Source: Limobrevibacterium gyesilva
GTDB taxonomy: Bacteria; Pseudomonadota; Alphaproteobacteria; Acetobacterales; Acetobacteraceae
NCBI RefSeq assembly: GCF_025989185.1
Contig: NZ_JAPDNT010000024.1
Span: 1-64,000, forward strand
Direction: 5' to 3'
Length of the DNA: 64,000 nt
Below the pieces are notes generated by a model. That model made no database searches. It saw nothing but the letters and a program-made list of their open reading frames with translations, and was not told the origin of the DNA. This document shows positions 8,277 to 34,316 of the stretch, piece by piece. Within the stretch, counting starts at the first letter, position 1. Each line of letters opens with the position of its first letter. The translations under genes were made by a program, and so were the position numbers.

Positions 8277-10313
8277 ATGACCACACGCAGGGCCCTTCTC
8301 GGCTACGCTTCGGCCATGGCCGCGGCCGCACCGACGGCCGAAGCACTGGCGCAGGCCGTCGCCGCCAGCGGACAGATCACGCAGTCCGGCCTGGTCGGCA
8401 CGCTGGAAGGCGCGACGCAGGCCACCGTCACGCCCGCCGCGTTCAAGGAGGCGCCGCAACTTGCCGAGCTGGTCAAGCAAGGCAAGCTGCCGCCCGTCGC
8501 CCAGCGCGTGCCGTCCGAGCCCCTGGTGATCAAGCCGCTGGAGCGGATCGGCCGCTACGGCGGCACCTGGCGGCGCGCCTTCATCGGCCCGTCGGACGGC
8601 GAGAACGGCAACCGCATCATGGCCTCCGACAAGCTGCTGTTCTGGGACTTCACGGGCAGCAAGATCGTGCCCAGCGTCGCCAAGGCCTACGAGCTCAGCA
8701 AGGACGGCAAGACCACGACGCTGTTCCTGCGCAAGGGCATGAAATGGGGCGACGGCTCGCCGTTCACCGCGGACGATTTCGTGTTCTGGTACGAGGACCT
8801 CTACCTTAACAAGGATGTCGTGCCGTCGCCGATCGCCGACATGGCGGCCGGCGGCAAACAGGGGCGGCTGGTGAAGATCGACGAGACCACGGTCCAGTTC
8901 CAGTTCGACAGCCCGTACTACCTGTTCCCCTCCATGCTGGCGGGCGACACGCTGATCGGCGGCGGGCAGGCGGTGCGCCAATCCTCCGGCAACACCTATG
9001 CGGCCTATGCGCCGGCGAAATACCTCAAGCAGTTCCTGCCGAAATACTCGTCCGAGGCCGAAGTGGCGCGCCGCGCCAAGGATGCCGGATTCGACTCCTG
9101 GGTGCGCATGCTGCACGTGATGAAGGACTGGCAGCTGAACCCCGAGCTGCCCACCCTGGGCCCGTGGAAGACGGTGCGCCCGATCAACACGCCCACCTGG
9201 GCGATGGAGCGCAACCCTTATTATTACGCTGTGGACACGGACGGCAACCAGCTGCCCTATTTCGACAGCATCGTCATGACGCTGGCCGAGAATATCGAGG
9301 TGGTGAACCTGCGCGCCATGGCCGGCGAATACGACCTGCAGGAACGCCATATCGATCTCGCCAAGCTGCCGGTGATCCTGGAGAACAGGAGCCGCGGCAA
9401 ATACGATGTCCATCTGGACCTCGCCTATAACGGCGCCGACACCGCGCTGCACATCAACATGGGCTACAAGGCCGATGCGGAGGTGGGCAAATGGCTGCGC
9501 ACCGCCGACTTCCGGCGTGCACTGGCGCTGGGCATCGATCGCGACCAGATGAACGAAACCTTCTGGCTGGGGCTGGCGACCCCCGGCTCGACCGCGCCGG
9601 CGGAGGTGATGCCGGAAAGCCCGGGCCCGGAGTGGCGCAAGAAATGGTCGGTGCACGACCCTGCCGCTGCCAACAGGATGCTGGACGCCCTGGGCCTGAC
9701 CAAAAAGGACAGCGCCGGCTACCGCCTGCGCACCGACAACGGCCAGCGCCTGGTGATCCAGCTGCTGGCGGTCAAGGCGTTCATGGACTGGCCGATGCAC
9801 GCCGAAATGATCGCCCAGCACTGGCGCCAGATCGGCATCTACGCCGACGTGAAAGAGGCCGAGCGCGGTCTCGCCTTCCAGCGCATCGCCGCCAGCGACC
9901 ACCACATCCTGGTCTGGACGAATGGCGGCACCGAGCTGCTCTACCTGTATCCGTCCTGGGCGCTGCCGGTCGACATCTCCAACGGCGCGTATGGCATGGA
10001 CCATGCGCGCTGGTACGCCTCGAATGGCCAGCAGGGCACCAGGCCGGAGGATCCGCACATGTTGCGGGCGCTGGAGCTGCTGCGCGCCGCGGCCGGCCAG
10101 CAGGAGGAGGAGCGCAACAAGACCGCGCAGGAGATCTGGAGGATCATGGTCGACCAGCAGTTCCATATCGGCACCTGCGGCCAGTCGCCGGCGCTGATGG
10201 GGGTGCGGCTGGCCAGCCAGCGCCTGGGCAACATCCCCGGCCGCACCTGCATCGCGCAGCACTGCCGCACGCCCGGCAGCTCGCATCCGGAGACCTGGTT
10301 CTACAAAGCGTAA
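8277..10313 (+). CDS. ABC importer substrate-binding protein, family 5 (copy 1)
   Basis: 678-residue periplasmic binding protein of the SBP_bac_5 family (peptide, opine or nickel type), longer than the usual 500-550 residues. The N-terminus MTTRRALLGYASAMAAA with a cleavage-like ALAQA is a Tat-like export signal. Family landmarks include KDGKTTTLFLRKGMKWGDG and FTADDFVFWYEDL. GGGAGGAA precedes the ATG. It is the first gene of a full importer operon and is closely similar along its whole length to the next gene. The substrate cannot be read from sequence. Confidence 0.9.
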   Translation: MTTRRALLGYASAMAAAAPTAEALAQAVAASGQITQSGLVGTLEGATQATVTPAAFKEAPQLAELVKQGKLPPVAQRVPSEPLVIKPLERIGRYGGTWRRAFIGPSDGENGNRIMASDKLLFWDFTGSKIVPSVAKAYELSKDGKTTTLFLRKGMKWGDGSPFTADDFVFWYEDLYLNKDVVPSPIADMAAGGKQGRLVKIDETTVQFQFDSPYYLFPSMLAGDTLIGGGQAVRQSSGNTYAAYAPAKYLKQFLPKYSSEAEVARRAKDAGFDSWVRMLHVMKDWQLNPELPTLGPWKTVRPINTPTWAMERNPYYYAVDTDGNQLPYFDSIVMTLAENIEVVNLRAMAGEYDLQERHIDLAKLPVILENRSRGKYDVHLDLAYNGADTALHINMGYKADAEVGKWLRTADFRRALALGIDRDQMNETFWLGLATPGSTAPAEVMPESPGPEWRKKWSVHDPAAANRMLDALGLTKKDSAGYRLRTDNGQRLVIQLLAVKAFMDWPMHAEMIAQHWRQIGIYADVKEAERGLAFQRIAASDHHILVWTNGGTELLYLYPSWALPVDISNGAYGMDHARWYASNGQQGTRPEDPHMLRALELLRAAAGQQEEERNKTAQEIWRIMVDQQFHIGTCGQSPALMGVRLASQRLGNIPGRTCIAQHCRTPGSSHPETWFYKA

Positions 10314-10328
10314 CGCGGACAGGGAACG

Positions 10329-10358
10329 CGTGGCGGCGGGGATGGCACTGCCGCCACG
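10329..10358 (+). terminator. Intercistronic hairpin between the two binding-protein genes
   Basis: CGTGGCGGC (10329-10337) and GCCGCCACG (10350-10358) form a perfect 9-base-pair stem with a 12-base loop and no U-tract. Located 15 bases after the first binding-protein stop, it could stabilise the upstream message or partly terminate transcription, as known for other operons in which binding protein outnumbers permease. Role is inferred. Confidence 0.5.
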
Positions 10359-10405
10359 GTTCGCCTAATGTTAGCGCAAGCATACGAAGACGTGGGGGGA
10401 ACGAA

Positions 10406-12439
10406 ATGACGACGCGCAGGCGCTTGCTGGGATATGGTGCGGCCATGGCGGCCGTAGGTGCGCCGACGGCGCAGGCATTGGCGCAGGCCGTCAGCGGCCA
10501 GTTCGCGCAATCCGGGCTGGTTGGCGCCCTGCAAGGACCGACCCAGGCCAACACGGTGCCTGCCAGCTTCAAGGAAGCGCCGCAACTGGCTGAGCTGGTC
10601 AAGCAGGGCAAGCTGCCGCCCGTCGCCCAGCGCATCCCCGCCGAGCCGATGGTGCTGAAGCCGCTGGAAAGCGCGGGCCGCTACGGCGGCACCTGGCGGC
10701 GCGCCTTCATCGGCCCGTCGGACGGCGAGAACGGCAACCGCATCAACGCCTCCGACAAGCTGCTGTTCTGGGACTACAACGGCAACAAGATCGTCCCCAG
10801 CGTCGCCAAGGGCTGGGAGATGAGCAAGGACGGCAAGACCACCACGCTGTTCCTGCGCAAGGGCATGAAATGGGCCGACGGCGCCCCCTTCACCGCCGAC
10901 GACTTCGTGTTCTGGTTCGAGGATCTCTACAGCAACAAGGACATCGTCCCCACGCCGATCTCGGACATGACTCCGGACGGCAAGCCCGGCCGGGTGGTGA
11001 AGATCGACGAGACCACCGTCCAGTTCCAGTTCGACACGCCGTTCTACCTGTTCATCGACCTGCTCGCCGGCGACACGCTGATCGGCGGCGGCCAGTCGGT
11101 GCGCCAGGCCACCAGCTTCACCTATGGCGCCTATTCGCCGGCCCATTACCTCAAGCAGTTCCTGCCGAAATACTCCTCGGAAGCCGAGGTCACGAAGCGC
11201 GCCAAGGAAGCCGGCTTCGATACCTGGGTGCGCGCGCTGCACGTGAAGAAGGACTGGCAGCTCAACCCCGCGCTGCCGACCATCGGGCCCTGGAGGACGG
11301 TGCGCCCGATCAACACGCCGACCTGGGCAATGGAGCGCAACCCGTACTACTGGGCAGTCGACACCGACGGCAACCAGCTGCCGTATATCGACAACATCGT
11401 GATGACCCTGGCCGAGGACCTGGAGGTGGTGAACCTGCGCGCCATGGCCGGCGAATTCGACGAGCAGGAGCGGCATATCAGCCTGGCCAAGCTGCCGGTG
11501 ATCCTGGAGAACCGGGAGCGCGGCAAGTACGACGTGCATCTCGACCTCGCCTTCAACGGCGCGGACACGGTGTTCCTGTTCAACATGAGCTACAAGGGCG
11601 ATCCCGAGATCGCCAAATGGATCCAGACCACCGATTTCCGCCGTGCGCTGTCGCTGTCGATCGACCGCGAGCAGATGAACGAGACGTTCTGGCTCGGCCT
11701 CGGCACGCCCGGCTCGATCGCGCCGAACGAGAGCCTGCCGCAGAGCCCGGGGCCGGAGTGGCGGACCAAGTGGTCCACCTACGACCCCGCCACTGCCAAC
11801 AAGATGCTGGACGCGATCGGCCTGTCCAAGAAGGACCGTGACGGCTATCGCCTGCGCACCGACAACGGCCAGCGCCTGGTGATCCAGATCCAGGCCGTCA
11901 ACGCTCTGCTGCCCTGGGTGCAGCACTCGGAAATGGTCAGCCAGTTCTGGCGCAAGGTCGGCATCTACGCCGACGTGAAGGAGATGGAGCGCAACCTCAA
12001 CCTGCAGCGGATCATGGGCAACGACCACCACGTCGCGGCCTGGCAGAATGGCGGCAGCGAGCTGCTGTACCTGTTCCCGCGCCACACTTTGCCCGTCGAT
12101 CCCACCGAGCCGTTCCTGGGGCCGGAGATCTGCAAGTGGTACGCCTCCGACGGCAAGCAGGGCACGCCGCCCGCTGACGCCAACCTGCTGCGCGCCCTGC
12201 AGCTGTTCCGCGGCGCCGCTGGCCAGCAGGAGGATGAGCGCAACAAGACCGCGCAGGAGATCTGGCGCATCCTGGTCGACAACCAGTACGGCATCGGCAT
12301 CTGCGGCCAGTCGCCGGCGGCCCAGGGCGTGCGCATCGTCGGCCGGCGGCTTGGCAACATCCCCGGACGCGCCTGCATCGCGCAGCATTGCCGCACCCCC
12401 GGCAGCTCGCATCCGGAGACGTGGTTCTATAAGGCATGA
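10406..12439 (+). CDS. ABC importer substrate-binding protein, family 5 (copy 2)
   Basis: 677-residue paralogue of the preceding gene, near-identical over long stretches (for example GGTWRRAFIGPSDGENGNR and the C-terminal CIAQHCRTPGSSHPETW) and with the same Tat-like N-terminus MTTRRRLLGYGAAMAA. GGGGGGAACGAA precedes ATG 10406. The frame is open for a long way upstream through copy 1, but that is only an out-of-phase shadow. Its stop overlaps the following permease start (ATGA), so this copy is translationally coupled to the transporter. Confidence 0.92.
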   Translation: MTTRRRLLGYGAAMAAVGAPTAQALAQAVSGQFAQSGLVGALQGPTQANTVPASFKEAPQLAELVKQGKLPPVAQRIPAEPMVLKPLESAGRYGGTWRRAFIGPSDGENGNRINASDKLLFWDYNGNKIVPSVAKGWEMSKDGKTTTLFLRKGMKWADGAPFTADDFVFWFEDLYSNKDIVPTPISDMTPDGKPGRVVKIDETTVQFQFDTPFYLFIDLLAGDTLIGGGQSVRQATSFTYGAYSPAHYLKQFLPKYSSEAEVTKRAKEAGFDTWVRALHVKKDWQLNPALPTIGPWRTVRPINTPTWAMERNPYYWAVDTDGNQLPYIDNIVMTLAEDLEVVNLRAMAGEFDEQERHISLAKLPVILENRERGKYDVHLDLAFNGADTVFLFNMSYKGDPEIAKWIQTTDFRRALSLSIDREQMNETFWLGLGTPGSIAPNESLPQSPGPEWRTKWSTYDPATANKMLDAIGLSKKDRDGYRLRTDNGQRLVIQIQAVNALLPWVQHSEMVSQFWRKVGIYADVKEMERNLNLQRIMGNDHHVAAWQNGGSELLYLFPRHTLPVDPTEPFLGPEICKWYASDGKQGTPPADANLLRALQLFRGAAGQQEDERNKTAQEIWRILVDNQYGIGICGQSPAAQGVRIVGRRLGNIPGRACIAQHCRTPGSSHPETWFYKA

Positions 12440-13425
12440 TTGCCTTCCTGCTCCGCCGGTTGGCGCTGGGGGTCATGACGATATGGCTGATATCGGTCCT
12501 GTCGTTCGTGATCATCCAGTTGCCGCCCGGTGACTTCGTCGATGCCTACATCGCGCAGCTGGCCTCGTCCGGCAGCAGCGTCTCGGCCGAGGAAGCCCAG
12601 GCGATGCGGCTGCAATACGGGCTGGGCCAGCCCTTCTACGTGCAGTACGGCAAGTGGATCAGCCGTGTCGTGGTGGGCGATTTCGGCGAATCGATGGAAT
12701 GGCGGCGGCCGGTCACCCAGGTGATCGGCGACCGCCTGTGGCTGACCCTGCTGCTGTCGCTGGGCGCGCTGATCGTCACCTGGACCCTCGCCTTGCCCAT
12801 CGGCATCTACTCGGCGGTGCGGCAATACTCCGTGGCCGACTACATCTTCACCCTGGTCGGCTTCATCGGCATCGCCGTGCCGAACTTCCTGATGGCGCTG
12901 ATCATCATGTATTTCGCCTTCAAGTTCTTCGGCGCCAGCGTCGGCGGCCTGTTCTCTGCCGAGTTCGCCATGGCGCCGTGGAGCTGGGCAAAGGCCTGGG
13001 ACCTCGCCAAGCACCTGCCGCTGCCGGCGGTGATCCTGGCCCTTGGCGGCACCGCCCAGCTCATCCGCATCATGCGCGCCAACCTGCTGGACGAATTGCG
13101 CCGGCCCTATGTGGTGACGGCCCGGGCAAAGGGCCTGTCGGAGACGCGGGTGATCCTGAAATACCCGGTCCGCGCGGCGCTCAACCCGTTCGCCAGCAAC
13201 ATCGCCTATCTGTTCCCGTATCTGGTGTCCGGCAGCATCATCATTTCCATCGTGCTCGGCCTGCCGACGGTCGGCCCGCTGCTGGTGAAGTCGCTGGTCG
13301 CCCAGGACATGTTCCTAGCCGGCACCATCGTGCTGCTGCTGGGCGTGCTCACTGTCGTCGGCACCTTCATCTCCGACCTGGTGCTGATGTGGGTCGACCC
13401 CCGCCTGCGCCATCAGATGGATTGA
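12436..13425 (+). CDS. ABC importer permease, DppB/OppB type
   Basis: 329-residue inner-membrane permease with the N-terminal IAFLLRRLALGVMTIWLISV helix and six helices typical of DppB. The ABC-ATPase coupling loop is seen in NLLDELRRPYVVTARAKGLSE (EAA-type motif). It overlaps the upstream binding protein by 4 bases and is followed 2 bases later by the second permease. Confidence 0.93.
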   Translation: MIAFLLRRLALGVMTIWLISVLSFVIIQLPPGDFVDAYIAQLASSGSSVSAEEAQAMRLQYGLGQPFYVQYGKWISRVVVGDFGESMEWRRPVTQVIGDRLWLTLLLSLGALIVTWTLALPIGIYSAVRQYSVADYIFTLVGFIGIAVPNFLMALIIMYFAFKFFGASVGGLFSAEFAMAPWSWAKAWDLAKHLPLPAVILALGGTAQLIRIMRANLLDELRRPYVVTARAKGLSETRVILKYPVRAALNPFASNIAYLFPYLVSGSIIISIVLGLPTVGPLLVKSLVAQDMFLAGTIVLLLGVLTVVGTFISDLVLMWVDPRLRHQMD

Positions 13426-26793: not shown

Positions 26794-28026
26794 CTACCCC
26801 AGCATCCCCGCCACCGCCCCGCTGGTGCAGGTGGCGAGCGTGCCCGCCAGAATGGAGCGGAACCCCAGCGCCACGATCTCCTGCCGCCGCTCCGGCACCA
26901 TCGCGCCCAACCCGCCGACCAGGATGCCCAGGCTGCCGAAATTGGCGAACCCGCACATCGCGTAGGTCATGATCAGGCGCGAGCGTGGCGACAGCGTCTC
27001 CGGCGGCAGCGCCGCGAGGTGCAGATAGGCCACGAACTCGTTCAGCACCGTCTTCGTCGCCATCAGCGCGGCCGCGTCCGGCGCCTCGGACCAGGGAATG
27101 CCGATCAGCCACATCACCACCTGGAACGGCCACGCGAAAATGCGCTGCAGCGTGAGCGCATGGTCGAACGGCAGCACGGCGAGCATCATGTTCAGCAGCG
27201 TCACCAGCGCCACCGTCACCAGCAGCACGGCAACGATGCCCACCAGCACCGGAATACCGTCGGCCGTGCCTTTCACCACCGCATCGAGCGCACTGACCGG
27301 CGCGTGCGGCAGCGCCAGCCGCGCCGCCTGCTCGCCCGGTCCGAACGGCACCATCAGGGCCGCGATTGCCAGCGCCGCCGGCGTGCTGATGACCGAGGCG
27401 ATCAGGATGTTGCCGAGCGCATTCGGGATCACCGGCCCCAGGATCGCCGCGTAGATCACCATCACCGTGCCGGCGATGCCCGCCATGCCGCAGGTCATCA
27501 GGGCAAAGATCTCGCCGCGCTGCATGCGCGCCAGCCACGGCCGCACCAGCAGCGGCGCCTCGATCATGCCCACGAACACATGCACCGCCGCCCCCAGCGC
27601 CAGCGCGCCGCCCACGCCCAGCCAGCGCCGCAGCAGCCAGGCGAAGCCGCGCATCACCTGCTGCAACACGCCCCAATGGAACAGCAGCGACGCCAGTGCG
27701 GAAATCACCAGCACCAGCGGCAGCGCCTTGAACGCCAGGATGAAGCTGGCGCCGGGATGCGTCTCCACGAACGGCAGCGGCGGGCCGGCGAGATAGCCGA
27801 ACACGAAGCTTGTGCCGGCATCGGTCGCACGCTGCAGTGCGTCGGCGGCGTCGTTCAGCAGCAGGATCGCGCGCGTGGCCGGGGGAAACCCGATCAGCAG
27901 CAGCGCCAGCGCCGCCTGCAACAGCACCCCGCCGATCACCGTGCGCCAGGGAATGCGGGCCCGGTCCTCGCTCAGCACCCAGGCCAGCGCCAGCAGCGCC
28001 GCGATCCCAGCCAGACCCTGCAGCAT
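26794..28026 (-). CDS. Concentrative nucleoside transporter (CNT/NupC family)
   Basis: 410-residue inner-membrane cation-coupled nucleoside symporter, complete for the family. The gate domain (LLNDAADALQRATDAGTSFVFGYL), the core (VFVGMIEAPLLVRPWL and LMTCGMAGIAGTVMVIYA) and the C-terminal NEFVAYLHL and YAMCGFANFGSLGI motifs are all present. GGAGAACCAGG precedes ATG 28026. It closes a same-strand run of catabolic genes, suggesting uptake of a nucleoside whose base or sugar is degraded by neighbours. Confidence 0.93.
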   Translation of the reverse strand: MLQGLAGIAALLALAWVLSEDRARIPWRTVIGGVLLQAALALLLIGFPPATRAILLLNDAADALQRATDAGTSFVFGYLAGPPLPFVETHPGASFILAFKALPLVLVISALASLLFHWGVLQQVMRGFAWLLRRWLGVGGALALGAAVHVFVGMIEAPLLVRPWLARMQRGEIFALMTCGMAGIAGTVMVIYAAILGPVIPNALGNILIASVISTPAALAIAALMVPFGPGEQAARLALPHAPVSALDAVVKGTADGIPVLVGIVAVLLVTVALVTLLNMMLAVLPFDHALTLQRIFAWPFQVVMWLIGIPWSEAPDAAALMATKTVLNEFVAYLHLAALPPETLSPRSRLIMTYAMCGFANFGSLGILVGGLGAMVPERRQEIVALGFRSILAGTLATCTSGAVAGMLG

Positions 28027-28057: not shown

Positions 28058-29164
28058 TCAGTAGCCTTCGTTCAGCGTCAGCAGCGGGAAGGCGCTGTGC
28101 ACATGCGGCGACACCACCGGCGGCGCCGGATGCACGAAGCTGCGGTCCAGTTGCGCGAAGCTGGTGGCGCCGACGAGTCCCAGGCACTCCTCGATTTCGT
28201 CCTCGAGGATCTCCAGCAGCCGCACGATCCCCGGCGCCCCCTCGGCCGCCAGGCCATACAGATACAGCCGGCCGAGCACCACCAGGTCCGCCCCCAGCGC
28301 AATGCCCTTCAGCACGTCGCTGCCGCGGCTGAATCCGCCATCGACATATACTTTCGCGCGCCCGGCCACCGCCGCGATCACTTCCGGCAGCACGTCGACC
28401 GCGCCGCGCCCATGATCGAGCTGGCGGCCGCCATGGTTGGAGACGTAGACGACGTCCACGCCCAGGCTGCAGGCCCGCTCGGCATCCTCGGCGGTGGCGA
28501 TGCCCTTGATGATCAGCGGCAGCTTGTGCTTCGCCTTGAACCGCTCGACATGGCCCCAGTTCAGCCCGGCCTGATATTCCATCCCGGTGTTGTTGGCGCG
28601 CCAGGGCTTGCGGAACCGCTTGGCGAGGTCGCGCTCGCGCCGGCTGTAATGCGCCGTGTCCACGGTGATGCAGAACGCGTCATAGCCGGCATCGGCCGCG
28701 CGCCGCGCGTGGTCGTCGATGAACGCGTCGTCGCCACGCACATACAGCTGGAACACTTTCGGCCCCGTGCCCGCGGCGGCCACCTTCTCCAGCGACGGCT
28801 GCGTCACCGAGCTCACGAACACCGGCACGCCATAGGCGCCCGCTGCCTGCGCGACCGTGGCGCCGCCGCCGGCGTCGAAGGATTCCAGCGACCCTACCGG
28901 CGCCAACGCTACCGGCAGGCGGATCTTCCGGCCGAGGAAACTATGGCTGCAATCGACATTGGCGACATCCACCAGCACGCGCGGCCGGAAGGCGATGCTG
29001 TCCAGCGCCAGGCGATTGCGGCGCAGCGTCGTTTCGGTCTCGGTGCCGCCGACCAGATAGTCCCAGATGAACTGGTTCAGCTTCAGCCGCGCCGCCTTGA
29101 CGAACTCATGCAGGTTCAGGAACTCGGCGTCGGTCGCGTTCCGCCCATCGGTGTTATCGCGCAT
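28058..29164 (-). CDS. FMN-dependent alpha-hydroxyacid dehydrogenase/oxidase
   Basis: 368-residue enzyme of the glycolate oxidase/L-lactate dehydrogenase (LldD) family, which oxidises alpha-hydroxyacids to 2-oxoacids. FMN and active-site signatures include ALAPVGSLESF, QLYVRGDD, KGIATAEDAERA and the catalytic histidine motif SNHGGRQLDH, followed by VDGGFSRGSDVLKGIALGA. Substrate is not clear. It lies between the FAH-family and CNT genes, with gaps of 69 and 31 bases. Confidence 0.93.
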   Translation of the reverse strand: MRDNTDGRNATDAEFLNLHEFVKAARLKLNQFIWDYLVGGTETETTLRRNRLALDSIAFRPRVLVDVANVDCSHSFLGRKIRLPVALAPVGSLESFDAGGGATVAQAAGAYGVPVFVSSVTQPSLEKVAAAGTGPKVFQLYVRGDDAFIDDHARRAADAGYDAFCITVDTAHYSRRERDLAKRFRKPWRANNTGMEYQAGLNWGHVERFKAKHKLPLIIKGIATAEDAERACSLGVDVVYVSNHGGRQLDHGRGAVDVLPEVIAAVAGRAKVYVDGGFSRGSDVLKGIALGADLVVLGRLYLYGLAAEGAPGIVRLLEILEDEIEECLGLVGATSFAQLDRSFVHPAPPVVSPHVHSAFPLLTLNEGY

Positions 29165-29233: not shown

Positions 29234-30412
29234 TCAGAGCAGACCGCGCTGCGCCAGATTGCGCATCAGCGCCCCGGCCCCGAAGCTCCAGCGTTCGCAC
29301 TGGTCGGTCGGGCGGATGCGGTTCACCAGCCGGCCCAGCTTCGGTGCCGAGATGGTGACGATGTCGCCCTCGCGATGCGTGAACCCCTTGCCCGGCGCCT
29401 CGCGGTCCTCGATCGGCGCGAACATCGTGCCGAGATACAGCACCGCCCCATCCGGAAAGGCGTGATGCGCGTTCAGCATCTGCCCTGCGAGGTCGGCAGG
29501 GTCGCGGCTGATCCGCGCCATCGACGACGATCCCTCCAGGCGGAAATTGTCGGCCCCCTCCACCGTCAGCGACACCACGGTCTGGCGCACGTCGTCCAGC
29601 GAGAAGCTTGCATCGAAGAAGCGGATGAACGGCCCCACGGCGGTCGAGGCGTTGTTGTCCTTGGCCTTGCTCAGCAGCAGCGCCGAGCGCCCCTCGATAT
29701 CGCGCAGGTTCACGTCGTTGCCCAGCGTGGCCCCCTGGATGCGCCCGGCGGAATTCACCACCAGCACGACCTCCGGCTCGGGATTGTTCCAACTCGATCC
29801 CGGATACACGCCGGCATCCATGCCGGTGCCGACAGCGGCCATCGGCTGGGACTTGGTGAAGATCTCGGCGTCCGGCCCGATGCCCACTTCCAGGTACTGG
29901 CTCCAGGCGCCCTGCCCGATCAGCACCTGCTTCAGCGCCATCGCCTCCGCCGAACCGGGCCGCAGCTTTGCGAGATCGTCGCCGATCAGCCGCTGCACCT
30001 CGGTGCGCAGATGCGCCGCCGCCGCCAGATCGCCGCGCGCGCGCTCCTCGATCACCCGCTCCAGCATCGAAATCGCGAAGGTCACGCCCGCCGCCTTCAC
30101 CGCCTGCAGGTCGATCGGCGCCAGCAGCCACGGCTTGCCGGCATCGCGCGCCTCGACCGGCGTGTTGGCCAGGATGGCGTCGAGGCTGCCGAGAGTCTCG
30201 CCCTCGGCCGCCCGCAACGCCGCCGCCGGATCGTCCGCCTCGCACAGATCGCGCATGGTCGGAAAGCTGCGCGAGACATCGAACACGCCCTGCCCGCGGA
30301 TCGCCACCACCGACGGCCCCTGCACATCCGGCCGCCACACCCGGCCGGCCAGCGCACCGGTTGTCCCGTCGACCGGCAGCACCGATGCGATGGCGTCATG
30401 GAACGTGGTCAT
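29234..30412 (-). CDS. Fumarylacetoacetate hydrolase-family protein
   Basis: 392-residue FAH-superfamily protein. Metal-binding and fold motifs appear in the C-terminal part: GIGPDAEIFTKSQPM, NPEPEVVLVVNSAG, GATLGNDVNLRDIEGR and KDNNASTAVGPFIRF. The family cleaves C-C bonds in 2-oxo or 1,3-diketo acids or hydrates sugar-derived 2-keto-3-deoxy acids; related sequences are annotated in sugar-acid breakdown. GGAGGAAAG precedes ATG 30412. Confidence 0.88.
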   Translation of the reverse strand: MTTFHDAIASVLPVDGTTGALAGRVWRPDVQGPSVVAIRGQGVFDVSRSFPTMRDLCEADDPAAALRAAEGETLGSLDAILANTPVEARDAGKPWLLAPIDLQAVKAAGVTFAISMLERVIEERARGDLAAAAHLRTEVQRLIGDDLAKLRPGSAEAMALKQVLIGQGAWSQYLEVGIGPDAEIFTKSQPMAAVGTGMDAGVYPGSSWNNPEPEVVLVVNSAGRIQGATLGNDVNLRDIEGRSALLLSKAKDNNASTAVGPFIRFFDASFSLDDVRQTVVSLTVEGADNFRLEGSSSMARISRDPADLAGQMLNAHHAFPDGAVLYLGTMFAPIEDREAPGKGFTHREGDIVTISAPKLGRLVNRIRPTDQCERWSFGAGALMRNLAQRGLL

Positions 30413-30473: not shown

Positions 30474-31415
30474 TCAGCGTCCCAGCACGTCCCCCGCGCC
30501 GGTGCGTTCCACGATCAGACCGTAATGCTCGGGCCGCCGGTGCTTCGCGAAGTTGAAGATGCTGGTCTTGTAGCTGTTGCACAGATCGAGGTCGCAGCGC
30601 GCCACCTGCAGCTCGTCGCCCAGCGTCGTGCACTGCACCACCACCTCGCCGGATGGGGCGATGACGCAGGACTGGCCGATCTGGTCGACACCCTCCTCCA
30701 CCCCAGCCCTGGCGACACCCACCACCCATGTCCCGTTCTGATAGGCGCCGGACTGCATCACCAGCTGGTTGTGGAAATTGCCGAGGTCGTCGGTCTCCGG
30801 CATCGCCGGATTGTGCACCGGCGTGTTGTAGCCCAGCAGGATCAGCTCCGCCCCCTGCAGGCCCATCACCCGGTACGATTCCGGCCAGCGGCGATCGTTG
30901 CAGATCATCATGCCCACCCGTCCGCCGAAGGCGTGCCACACGGGGAAGCCGAGATTGCCGACCTCGAAATACCGCTTCTCCAGGTTCTGGAATGGATCGC
31001 CAGGCCGCCGGTCGGTGTAGCCCGGCAGGTGGATCTTGCGGTACTTGCCGATGATCTCGCCGTCCTTGCCCACCAGGATGGCGGTGTTGAAGCGCCGCTT
31101 GCGCCCGTCCTCGAAGGCCAGCTCGGCATAGCCGAGATGGAACCCCACCTTCAGCCGCCGCGCCGCATCGAACAGCGGCTGCACCGCGGGGTTCGGCATC
31201 GCCCGCTCGAACCAACTGTCCAGCTCGTCCTCGTCGTCGATCCACCAATGCGGGAAGAACGCCGTCAGTGCCGCTTCGGGATAGACAACCAGGTCGCAGC
31301 CCATGCGGGCGGCGTCCTCCATCAGCGCCACCAGCCGGACGACGACGTCCTGGCGGCTCTCATTGCGGCTGATCGGACCAAGCTGGGCGATGCCGACGTT
31401 CAGAATACGGGCCAT
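30474..31415 (-). CDS. N-carbamoyl-D-amino acid hydrolase-like amidohydrolase (nitrilase superfamily)
   Basis: 313-residue cytoplasmic hydrolase. The catalytic triad is seen as glutamate in YPEAALTAFFP, lysine in KYRKIHLPG and cysteine in MMICNDRRWPE, with the Asn-Asp-Arg-Arg-Trp context of D-carbamoylases. Length is close to the roughly 304 residues of characterised enzymes. ATG 31415 chosen because the first 22 codons of the longer frame are unconserved and basic. Products would be a D-amino acid, CO2 and ammonia if the substrate is as in relatives. Confidence 0.88.
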   Translation of the reverse strand: MARILNVGIAQLGPISRNESRQDVVVRLVALMEDAARMGCDLVVYPEAALTAFFPHWWIDDEDELDSWFERAMPNPAVQPLFDAARRLKVGFHLGYAELAFEDGRKRRFNTAILVGKDGEIIGKYRKIHLPGYTDRRPGDPFQNLEKRYFEVGNLGFPVWHAFGGRVGMMICNDRRWPESYRVMGLQGAELILLGYNTPVHNPAMPETDDLGNFHNQLVMQSGAYQNGTWVVGVARAGVEEGVDQIGQSCVIAPSGEVVVQCTTLGDELQVARCDLDLCNSYKTSIFNFAKHRRPEHYGLIVERTGAGDVLGR

Positions 31416-31458
31416 GCTGCTCCTCCGTTGCCCCGCGACTCTGCCATGGCGCGCGCGA

Positions 31459-34260
31459 TCAGCCCAGCGCACCCACCTCATGCGTCACCGCCGTTCCGAT
31501 CTCGCGCACCAAGGCGAACAACCGCTGCATCGGCGCGAAGATCTCGGCGTGCTCGCGCATATAGGCCTCCACCGCGCGCGGCGCCCGCGGCTCGCCGTAG
31601 TCGCGGTCGGCGGCGGGATCGGGGGCGGCGGGAAACGCCTCGGCCAGAAATGCCAGCGCCGCCGGCACGTCCAGCCGCAGGATGCGCAGATCGAGCGCCG
31701 CGCGCGTCACCCCGTGGCGCGGCGAGAAATCGGGGATCGCGGTGGCCAGCAGCCAGATGCGATGGATCAATGTCAGCCGCAGCGCATGCAGCAGCATCTC
31801 GCGCGTGGCCATGCGCGGCACATCCGGCCAGGCCGCGCGCAGGGCCACGTGGTCGGCCTGGATGCGCCGGAACATCGCCTGCGCCGGCGCCCACAGATCC
31901 AGCCGCTCCAGCCCGCGCGCCACCAGCACCAGCGCCTCCCGCCGGCCGGGGAGGCGAGCATGCGCGGCCCGGTCCAGCCACGTGCCGGGGTCCAGCGTGG
32001 CCACCACCGCGCGCAGCACGTAGACGTCGGAATGCGCCGCCGCATGCGCCGCCAGATCGAGCGCACCGCCGAAGCGCGGGCTGCCCTCGCGCAGCTCGGT
32101 GAACGTTTCGGGATGGCGCGCGGCGGCCGTGCCCAGGCCCTGCAGCGTGTTCGCGAGCCAGCCGAGCTGGTGCAGGATGGCGTTGTTCGGGATCGCGCGC
32201 AGCTCGCGCGGATGGCGGATGGTCGCCGGCCCGCCCATCCCGTCCGTCTGCCGCGCCGCCGGGCGCGAGCCCGTGGCGTCCAGCAACGCCGGCCCGAACG
32301 CGCCCAGCAGCGCCGCGTAGCCGGGGGCCTCGACCAGCTCCTGCATGCCGGCGCGGCTGGTGGCGAAGAAATCGGCGGCGAAATCGGCCTCGTCATAGAT
32401 CGGATCGCCGGCCGGCACCGCATCCGGCGGGAACGCGTGCTCGGCGATGCGCGTCACCGTCGCCAGCGCCAGTTCCGGGGTGCCGAACAGCAGATAGCCA
32501 TCCCCGCCCTGGAACGCGCTCTCCTCGCGCACCGCAATCCCCGCGGCAGCCAGCGCGCGCCGGCACCAGGGCGGCGACAGGTAGTCCAGCCGCGCCGCCA
32601 GCGATCCCGGATGCGCCCCGCGCCCGACGCTCTCGCCATGGGTGTCGAACAGCACCACCTCGACATCGGCCAGCCCGTGCCGGCCCAGCGCCTCGGCGAT
32701 CTTCAGCCGCAGCCGCTCGATCAGATAGCTGGCGGCGATCTGCCCGACATAGCGGCCGGAATCCGAGTAGCCGAACTGCACGGCCAGCCGCCCGGTCGTC
32801 CGCAGATAGGCGCGCCAATGCGGGCTGCGCAGCGCCTCCTCCACCACTCGCGCGCCATGTTCCAGCGCGTCCGCCGTCTCGAACAACGGGCTGATCTCGA
32901 CATGCCGCTCCACGCCGAACAGCCGCGCCAGCCACAGCGCCGCCAGCAGCGTGTAGCCGGTCTCGGTCTCCGCGATCAGGAAGCGGATCGGCGTCGCGCC
33001 GTCGATCAGCTTCACGATCTGCGCCACCGTCATCATCAGCCGCGCCGCCGAGGCCTGCTCGGCCAGCACCGCGCCGAAATCCACGCCGACCGGCCGCACC
33101 GCGTCCAGCGCCGCGTTGATGTCCGACAGCAGCCCGCGCCGGCGTGACGGGTCCTCCGGCGGGTCGGCCAAGCCCAGGCGCTGGCGCACCACGTTATGCA
33201 CCTGCGCGGAATTGAGCCGCACATGCGTGTGCGCAAGCGACATGCCGTGCGCCAGAAGCCCCGCCCGCGCCACCGCCAGATCGAGCTTTCCCGCCTCCGG
33301 TGCCATGGCGATCGCGTCGTCGAACAGCGGCAACAGCGCGTCGGGCGTCACGAAGGCGGCATCCCGCCAGTCCACCAGCGCATGCGCGAACGCCACCGCC
33401 TGGTCGGGATCGGCCGTCTCCGGGCAGGCCGCGATCTGCGCGGCCACCGCCGCCAATGCCGCCGCCACCAGCTCCGCCAGCCGAGCCGCCGCCGGCACGC
33501 CGGCAACCTGTGCGTGCAGGCGGTCGAGTTGCAGCCGCTTCATGCGCAACCGCAGCCTTAGCGTATCCCACCAATGGATGTCGGTGCGCCCATCGGTGTC
33601 GTAGCCAACCCAGCTCGCCAGCACGACCGGGCGTGGCGTGATCGCCGTCCACCGCCCCGGCCAGGCATCGCGCGCCGCCGCCAGCAGCGATGCGGTCAGC
33701 CGGTCCAGCGCGTCGCGCCCATGCGTCATGGCGGCGACGGCCTGGGCGAATTCCTCCTCCAGCGTGATGCCGGCGGGGCGGTGCGACACGAAGCAGGCAT
33801 CGGGCGGCCGGCCCGACGCCGCCTCCGCCAGCGCATGGGCTACCGGCTGGGGCAGCGCGAAGGTCGGATGCGCCGTGAAGACGGCGGCGAAGCGCGGCCG
33901 CTCGACCAGGGCCCGGAACGCCGCCAGCGGCACCGCGCTGTCGGCCGGATCGGGCCGCACCAGCCGCGCCGCCAGCCGCGCCAGCGCCGCCGCGTTGCCG
34001 GCATCGCCTGCGCCCACATAGGCGGCGAGCCGGCCGGCGCGATCGGCGAAGGCGCTGTCGCGCAGGAACCGCACCAGCGTTTCCAGCTCGGCCGCCGACA
34101 CCTGGCCGGCATCGATCCGCCGCGATATCGCCAGCGACACCGCCAGCACCGGATTTCCTGACGGGTCCTCTTGCAGCCGCTCGCGCATGCGCTCGGTCAG
34201 CGCCAGCAGGTCGCGAGCGAGCGGAACGGCAGCAACAGGGTCCGGCACGGAATGCTGCAT
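31459..34260 (-). CDS. Divergent phosphoenolpyruvate carboxylase-like protein
   Basis: 933-residue protein with clear but patchy similarity to PEP carboxylase. FTAHPT (catalytic His at 131), PLFET (458-462), GYSDS (497-501), a SRPAAR segment and a following RAIP are retained. However the GGDRDGNP motif reads GYDTDGRTDI at 219-228, and the HGRGGSxGRGG loop reads HGESVGRG at 541-548, losing one of the two arginines. The C-terminal QNTG is missing; it ends THEVGALG. It may still be a carboxylase or may have changed function. Start ATG 34260 has no obvious ribosome site; the frame is open to 34296. Confidence 0.75.
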   Translation of the reverse strand: MQHSVPDPVAAVPLARDLLALTERMRERLQEDPSGNPVLAVSLAISRRIDAGQVSAAELETLVRFLRDSAFADRAGRLAAYVGAGDAGNAAALARLAARLVRPDPADSAVPLAAFRALVERPRFAAVFTAHPTFALPQPVAHALAEAASGRPPDACFVSHRPAGITLEEEFAQAVAAMTHGRDALDRLTASLLAAARDAWPGRWTAITPRPVVLASWVGYDTDGRTDIHWWDTLRLRLRMKRLQLDRLHAQVAGVPAAARLAELVAAALAAVAAQIAACPETADPDQAVAFAHALVDWRDAAFVTPDALLPLFDDAIAMAPEAGKLDLAVARAGLLAHGMSLAHTHVRLNSAQVHNVVRQRLGLADPPEDPSRRRGLLSDINAALDAVRPVGVDFGAVLAEQASAARLMMTVAQIVKLIDGATPIRFLIAETETGYTLLAALWLARLFGVERHVEISPLFETADALEHGARVVEEALRSPHWRAYLRTTGRLAVQFGYSDSGRYVGQIAASYLIERLRLKIAEALGRHGLADVEVVLFDTHGESVGRGAHPGSLAARLDYLSPPWCRRALAAAGIAVREESAFQGGDGYLLFGTPELALATVTRIAEHAFPPDAVPAGDPIYDEADFAADFFATSRAGMQELVEAPGYAALLGAFGPALLDATGSRPAARQTDGMGGPATIRHPRELRAIPNNAILHQLGWLANTLQGLGTAAARHPETFTELREGSPRFGGALDLAAHAAAHSDVYVLRAVVATLDPGTWLDRAAHARLPGRREALVLVARGLERLDLWAPAQAMFRRIQADHVALRAAWPDVPRMATREMLLHALRLTLIHRIWLLATAIPDFSPRHGVTRAALDLRILRLDVPAALAFLAEAFPAAPDPAADRDYGEPRAPRAVEAYMREHAEIFAPMQRLFALVREIGTAVTHEVGALG

Positions 34261-34316
34261 ACGCGAAGACTGCGCGCGCGGCCGCGCCCGGCGCAAGCGT
34301 TCCGGCGCGCGCTATT

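Follow-up and report, generated by a model that had tools for sequence, protein, structure and literature searches.

A gene for a divergent form of phosphoenolpyruvate carboxylase (PEPC), here called DIV, lies on the minus strand of a 64,000 nucleotide stretch of the genome of Limobrevibacterium gyesilva (family Acetobacteraceae; contig NZ_JAPDNT010000024.1, positions 1 to 64,000), which is referred to as the window. The gene occupies 34260..31459, starts with ATG at 34260, ends with TGA and encodes a protein of 933 amino acids; in plus-strand frame 1 over 31459-34260, stops break the reading frame. The protein may instead start at an in-frame TTG at 34296, which would add 12 residues (945 amino acids).

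Coordinates of the active-site motifs, all on the minus strand, were calculated from the residue number n as 34260 - 3(n-1), and residues were compared with those of E. coli PEPC (Ppc). FTAHPT (residues 128-133) and the following F134 (together 33859..33879) contain H131, the kept equivalent of E. coli H138, and the E141F switch. The loop GYDTDGRTDI (residues 219-228, 33577..33606) replaces GGDRDGNP and has Y220, T222 and R225 at E. coli positions 251, 253 and 256. PLFET (residues 458-462, 32875..32889) provides E461, the metal ligand E506, and QFGYSDSGR (residues 495-503, 32752..32778), which includes GYSDS at 497-501, carries Q495 (M538Q), D500 (metal ligand D543) and R503 (K546R). The loop DTHGESVGRG (residues 539-548, 32617..32646), in which HGESVGRG forms residues 541-548, contains D539 (H579D), T540 (G580T), H541 (R581H), E543 (G583E) and R547, the kept R587. 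The protein ends in HEVGALG, and GALG (residues 930-933, 31462..31473) replaces (Q/R)NTG with the final glycine retained. An initial annotation of the locus had listed FTAHPT, GYDTDGRTDI, PLFET, GYSDS and HGESVGRG, the missing QNTG, and the replacement of the HGRGG arginine by histidine with the second arginine kept; all were found again in the translation, and alignment to E. coli Ppc sets H541 at R581 and R547 at R587. Changes beyond that list are H579 to D, K546 to R, M538 to Q, E141 to F and N256 to R.

Active-site residues across the DIV clade

The main active-site alignment compared 56 members of the clade to which DIV belongs (the window protein included) with 40 canonical PEPCs, in E. 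coli numbering. Six switches (E141F, M538Q, K546R, G580T, R581H and G583E) occur in 56/56 clade members, against the canonical residue in 40/40 canonical enzymes, and N256R also occurs in 56/56, at a column that is N in 38 and H in two of the canonical sequences. Position R253 is R in 40/40 canonical enzymes and L in 24 and T in 21 of the 56 clade members, and is T in all 61 rows of alignment A2 (the window protein and 60 relatives). The H579 column in the clade holds D (40), N (14), S (1) and H (1). Invariant in all 56 and 40 rows are H138, W248, D252, D254, G255, R396, L504, E506, D543, G582, R587, G588, R699 and R713. At the positions tested, an earlier alignment of 98 clade members agreed with this; in it W248, R396, E506, D543, R587, R699 and R713 are unchanged in 98/98 and H138 in 97, with one gap. 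Judged from these alignments, the rewriting of the loops is uniform across the clade and not a local oddity, because the switches are fixed in 56 clade members. Between DIV and its relative L040 (77 % identical), codon positions 1, 2 and 3 differ at 17, 13 and 42 %, a pattern that looks as in a gene under constraint; this pattern and the fixation of seven switches in 56/56 members argue that the rewritten loops are not due to chance.

Among the features that define bacterial and plant PEPCs, the HGRGG loop with H579 and R581 is absent from the DIV clade, the bicarbonate-site lysine K546 is R in 56/56 members, and DIV lacks the GGDRDGNP motif and the C-terminal QNTG; since these defining loop residues are missing, DIV stands outside canonical PEPC. 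The metal ligands E506 and D543, together with H138, R396, R587, R699 and R713, are present in 56/56. We take R396, R581 and R713 to hold the phosphate; two of these three arginines are retained in the clade and R581 is lost. W248, L504 and M538 presumably line the CO2 pocket. The roles of the metal ligands and the other retained residues follow in part PMC11832675 and PMC10176493, and in the latter CO2 sits in a hydrophobic pocket during the PEPC reaction. On this reading, metal binding, most of the hold on the phosphate and the two carboxylation residues would be retained in the clade, with the charges around phosphate and bicarbonate relaid. The inhibitor site is also altered, K773 being H and N881 being A in the window protein and mostly likewise in the 98-member alignment (inhibitor-site roles in part after PMC3615186).

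Fold, profile scores and phylogeny

A structural model of DIV was computed with AlphaFold2 from alignment A2 and has a mean predicted local distance difference test (pLDDT) score of 89.9 and a predicted template modelling (pTM) score of 0.91; a low-confidence stretch, residues 667-675, comes right after R666 (E. coli R699). The top Foldseek match of the model is E. coli PEPC (1jqn; TM 0.59/0.63, 16 % identity). With VIA-align, the top 23 entries are all bacterial or plant PEPCs, with 727-760 residues aligned and Z of 25.4-29.7 in 22 of the 23 and 20.9 for 1fiy; Z is 29.7 over 750 residues to maize 6mgi and 28.1 over 731 residues to E. coli 1jqn. Below them come archaeal-type PEPC (Z 15.6) and pyruvate kinases (Z 14.8 and less). 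The fold of DIV is therefore that of PEPC end to end.

Profile scores are lower. DIV passes the PF00311 gathering score (64.7 versus 22.4 bits), with its best stretch at residues 337-553 and covering only 223 of 919 model positions. An all-Pfam scan at E 0.001 gave PF00311 alone, PF14010 (archaeal-type PEPC) had no match in DIV, and a single-sequence search of the PDB returned nothing but PEPCs at E <= 1, 12 sequences in all with a best E of 2.4e-10. A PDB profile search with alignment A1 was set aside, since canonical PEPCs make up 6 of the 51 rows of that alignment.

Phylogeny, one of the checks that the initial annotation had suggested, was addressed with a quick LG+G4 search on 72 of 104 aligned rows (L231 was left out as too short), a tree in which the long rows of a third group and L145 are poorly placed. 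In it, 42 clade members form one side of a branch with Shimodaira-Hasegawa-like approximate likelihood ratio test (SH-aLRT) support of 100 and a stem of 1.06 changes per column, separate from canonical PEPC; 23 canonical rows, including E. coli, a Paraburkholderia and the Paracoccus serine-cycle PEPC, form another branch with support 100. Scores are bimodal: no listed member of 179 clade open reading frames (duplicates included) exceeds 55 bits against E. coli Ppc, and none of 35 canonical open reading frames exceeds 41 bits against the window protein. Identity between clade and canonical PEPCs is 17-20 %, and clade members extend to about 28 % identity with the window protein. To judge from tree and scores, the DIV clade is a large, old and uniform branch of PEPC; no published description of it was found in the open-licence PMC literature. 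That DIV is instead an ordinary PEPC whose loops only look rewritten through alignment error would fit the low identity of 17-20 % to canonical PEPCs, and is nonetheless extremely improbable: the register is fixed by invariant anchors beside the switches (HPT, W-G-D-DG, PLFET, G-SDS, G-RG), and 56 and 40 sequences split cleanly at seven columns, each group on a branch with support 100.

Two further sets of sequences were noted. A third, very divergent PEPC-like set occurs in alphaproteobacterial genomes of 1.8-2.4 Mb, with open frames of 1062-1164 amino acids (L226:6358-9849:-; L227:6526-9711:-; L228:5586-8912:- and 9014-12487:-, in tandem; L229:6242-9508:-; L230:7118-10564:+), mostly with a GDKDGN or GDRDGN motif and without a GYSDS or GRG string; it scores 47-112 bits with the canonical-PEPC profile and has long tree branches. 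Copies 68-72 % identical to the window protein were found in L041, L056 and L073, records titled Solirubrobacterales, Nitrosovibrio and Acidobacteria, titles that may be wrong.

Distribution and proposed function

The window protein was matched at E <= 0.001 in 57 of 100 genomes (the window genome, G000, included), weakly in G018 and G068, and G000 has no second PF00311 match. In a sample of 150 genomes of the family, PF00311 was found in 104, with the DIV form in 103, the canonical form in three and both in two, the forms being separated by bits (44-74 versus >700); 46 of the 103 also match the window protein directly. DIV is the sole PF00311 protein in 101 of these 103 carriers. A sample of 387 genomes of the class contained DIV in 68 (>200 bits against the window protein, outlier G447 included) and canonical PEPC in 40 (>140 bits, including a partial match in G503 and the odd G435, and excluding fragments of 93.5 bits in G315); most genomes carry neither form, and only one (G415) carries both, versus 7.0 expected (Fisher one-sided p 0.003, uncorrected for kinship). 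Outside the family there are 62 carriers; PF00311 matches 61 of these, and G415 alone has a canonical PEPC as well. Named carriers, among the best 80 of 250 matches, include Komagataeibacter, Gluconacetobacter, Rhodopila, Acidisoma, Belnapia, Stella and Paraburkholderia; 18 of 22 named genomes with DIV have no other PF00311 protein, and three Paraburkholderia and a Methylopila metagenome-assembled genome (MAG) also have the canonical form. A strict complementarity of anaplerotic enzymes in the family was considered and rejected: 43 of the 150 genomes match neither PF00311 nor PYC_OADA, and five of the eight PYC_OADA-positive genomes also carry DIV.

In five Komagataeibacter genomes (K. xylinus K2G30 included) DIV is the sole PF00311 protein, and no archaeal-type PEPC, PYC_OADA domain or ATP-dependent phosphoenolpyruvate (PEP) carboxykinase was found in them, GTP-dependent PEP carboxykinase not having been searched for. 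The ATP-dependent carboxykinase is present in G000, and PF14010 had no match in G000 and 13 other genomes. Extracts of Gluconacetobacter xylinus CGMCC 2955 had PEPC activity by a commercial kit, and its network includes a PEP-to-oxaloacetate flux (part of PMC4047042). By elimination, and across strains, we infer that the PEPC activity of the Komagataeibacter group is tied to DIV. Purified commercial PEPC from Acetobacter was inhibited by aspartate and malate (part of PMC5259782), which speaks for a PEPC in that genus. The ppc gene of Acetobacter pasteurianus 386B is named APA386B_587 (part of PMC3751514) and annotated as a frameshifted pseudogene (part of PMC6915089); if this gene is DIV, the strain would be a natural knock-out.

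Taken together, DIV is probably, by elimination, a working PEPC that belongs to an old clade of its own and has an alternative active site. Its fold, its clade, the fixed switches, the retained residues and the distribution are observed; from fold and retained residues one would expect it to act as PEPC does, and we infer its activity, its substrate and the part played by each switched position. PEP and a divalent metal would be bound via E461 and D500 (E506 and D543) and the arginines R348 and R688 (R396 and R713), phosphate would pass from PEP to bicarbonate, and the resulting CO2 would be joined to the enolate with H131 and R547 (H138 and R587), giving oxaloacetate for the tricarboxylic acid cycle. 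Charges near phosphate and bicarbonate would be rearranged, with H541, R503, D539 and T222 in place of R581, K546, H579 and R253 and with R225 gained nearby, and the CO2 pocket would have Q495 for M538 and F134 close to the catalytic histidine.

Several observations weigh against this reading. Flaveria Lys600 is, as we assume, equivalent to E. coli K546. Its change to Arg or Thr raised the Km for PEP and bicarbonate (part of PMC6363079). Literature excerpts cite H138, H579 and R587 as important in E. coli PEPC, and of the residues important in that enzyme the clade has lost H579 in 55/56 members and R581 and K546 in 56/56. DIV misses the cut-off of the curated NCBIfam PEPC equivalog NF000584 (66.3 versus 815 bits), which makes it a variant outside canonical membership. 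The five Komagataeibacter genomes are drafts and of other strains than the one assayed, no report was found of an assay on a clade member whose sequence is known, and the bought Acetobacter enzyme may be another protein because the inhibitor site of the clade is changed (K773 to H, N881 to A). The gene named ppc in Gluconobacter oxydans (GOX0102) was judged possibly unimportant in the wild type (part of PMC6191907). The role of DIV is not indispensable, because the 43 family genomes mentioned above match neither PF00311 nor PYC_OADA; two of them, G041 and G018, show pieces of the DIV gene. Finally, DIV and canonical PEPC occur together in 3/3 Paraburkholderia, the Methylopila MAG, G415 and two family genomes, and because a canonical enzyme is present there DIV is not a simple stand-in in those genomes.

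The same losses of H579, R581 and K546, and the poor match to the PEPC model, would suit a weak or inactive relative of PEPC acting as a regulatory or structural protein. Inactive enzyme relatives usually lose active-site residues, whereas both metal ligands and six more active-site residues are invariant in 56/56 clade members with identity down to about 28 %, and DIV is the only PF00311 protein in most carriers (101/103 in the family, 18/22 named genomes); a non-catalytic role is therefore very unlikely. An enzyme with the PEPC fold and the same metal and enolate chemistry could also catalyse another reaction; it might, for example, act on a different enol phosphate, hydrolyse PEP, or carboxylate with CO2 and not bicarbonate, and the coordinated switches would then mark a change of specificity. 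Seven positions within or next to the catalytic motifs, which changed together and stayed constant thereafter in a clade with a long stem (1.06 changes per column), would fit this, as would the presence of the bicarbonate-site lysine and the pocket methionine among them and the occurrence of both forms in Paraburkholderia, where DIV is clustered with SDR, 2-hydroxyacid dehydrogenase, amino-acid ABC transporter and GntK-like kinase genes. Another reaction is nevertheless unlikely: H138 and R587 are retained in 56/56, the five Komagataeibacter genomes, whose group is reported to have PEPC activity, yielded no PEPC candidate other than DIV, and DIV rarely shares a genome with canonical PEPC (1/387 class-sample genomes). 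The initial annotation had left the choice between a noncanonical carboxylase and a different enzyme; the former is favoured by the PEPC fold, the metal ligands, the two retained phosphate arginines, the carboxylation-step residues and the sole candidacy in Komagataeibacter, and the latter is less likely. Put more broadly, it is unlikely that the clade with K546R, R581H and M538Q runs non-canonical chemistry, be it another CO2/bicarbonate geometry or another enol-phosphate carboxylation or product; in that case the 'ppc' annotations in acetic acid bacteria would need re-reading.

Gene neighbourhood and known PEPC systems

DIV is followed by a same-strand run of genes on the minus strand: a carbon-nitrogen hydrolase of the nitrilase superfamily (30474..31481), which overlaps the DIV end by 23 bases and misses the N-carbamoylputrescine amidase model (118.7 versus 410.25), an FAH-family gene (29234..30412) 61 bases downstream of it, a gene of the flavin mononucleotide (FMN)-dependent alpha-hydroxyacid dehydrogenase family (28058..29164) and a NupC/CNT nucleoside transporter family gene (26794..28026). 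The survey of neighbours covered 120 loci, one of which (L126) holds a canonical PEPC, with flanks of at most about 8 kb and less near the ends of contigs. At L094:484-6078, DIV, nitrilase and FAH genes have the order and strand of the window, both neighbours being 77-78 % identical to the window's, and at L059 nitrilase and FAH genes lie about 5.7 kb from DIV on the opposite strand. A conserved nitrilase/FAH/FMN dehydrogenase pathway with DIV was rejected, nitrilase and FAH being nearby at these two of 120 loci, and the initial annotation's argument about function from a carbamoylase/FAH neighbourhood is weakened by the same count; that neighbourhood is mostly local. The commonest of the tested window neighbours is DUF445 (23/120 loci).

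Other carriers have other surroundings. A Sphingobium plasmid cluster (L035:5445-12817) contains 2-hydroxyacid dehydrogenase, APH-family kinase, enolase (523.5 bits versus 300), FAH and DIV genes in a row and resembles a dedicated pathway leading via 2-phosphoglycerate and PEP to C4 acids. In Burkholderia and three Paraburkholderia, SDR and 2-hydroxyacid dehydrogenase genes surround DIV, the dehydrogenase following it, with RraA too in Burkholderia. A SucCD/MtkAB-type pair precedes DIV in Phyllobacterium and in 4/5 sampled genomes of genus g96. This coenzyme A (CoA)-ligase pair was considered as malate thiokinase: its beta subunits at L036 and L119 pass the succinate-CoA ligase cut-off and miss the malate-CoA ligase one, and the pair is at most a possible malate thiokinase. 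Several of the steps encoded by the neighbours of DIV run towards PEP or consume C4 acids, as would suit a PEPC without proving one.

Three known systems can be compared with DIV. Archaeal-type PEPC (PF14010; PDB 3odm) matches the model over 464 residues (Z 15.6) and is shorter (530 residues in 3odm). The methylotroph serine-cycle PEPCs (Methylosinus Ppc1, part of PMC3615186; Paracoccus L037) resemble DIV in departing at the inhibitor site K773 and N881; unlike DIV, those checked (Paracoccus L037 and G415 at L161/L166) have canonical catalytic loops, and the Paracoccus enzyme falls in the canonical clade of the tree, from which the G415 row was absent. In G415 a serine-cycle cluster (hpr-like, mtkA, mtkB, canonical ppc, mcl-like) is present at L161:8385-17218 and DIV elsewhere at L142:7998-10865. 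The idea that DIV is itself a methylotroph serine-cycle PEPC was rejected, as the gene between mtkAB and mcl-like is the canonical one; G415 is a natural place to ask what DIV adds beside canonical PEPC.

Bacterial and plant PEPC (EC 4.1.1.31; PF00311; E. coli Ppc, PDB 1jqn) shares with DIV the full-length fold (Z 28.1), E506/D543, H138, W248, R396, L504, R587, R699, R713 and the C-terminal glycine; DIV differs in having GYDTDGRTDI for GGDRDGNP, DTHGESxGRG for HGRGGSxGRG, K546R, M538Q and E141F, and in lacking QNTG. The active site of PEPC is a textbook example of conservation, and the HGRGG loop and the bicarbonate-site lysine count among the defining features of the enzyme; in a large clade that provides the only PF00311 protein of most carriers examined these elements are replaced in one uniform way. 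Were DIV not a PEPC, anaplerosis in acetic acid bacteria, producers of cellulose and vinegar among them, would rest on an unidentified enzyme, while metabolic models name a ppc gene. Many acetic acid bacteria and related species seem to have no enzyme of this kind besides DIV, so that there is probably a second way to build the PEPC active site, which had been supposed to be fixed; if active, DIV would be a natural second solution for bicarbonate-dependent carboxylation of PEP, of help in work on residue roles and in the engineering of carbon fixation.

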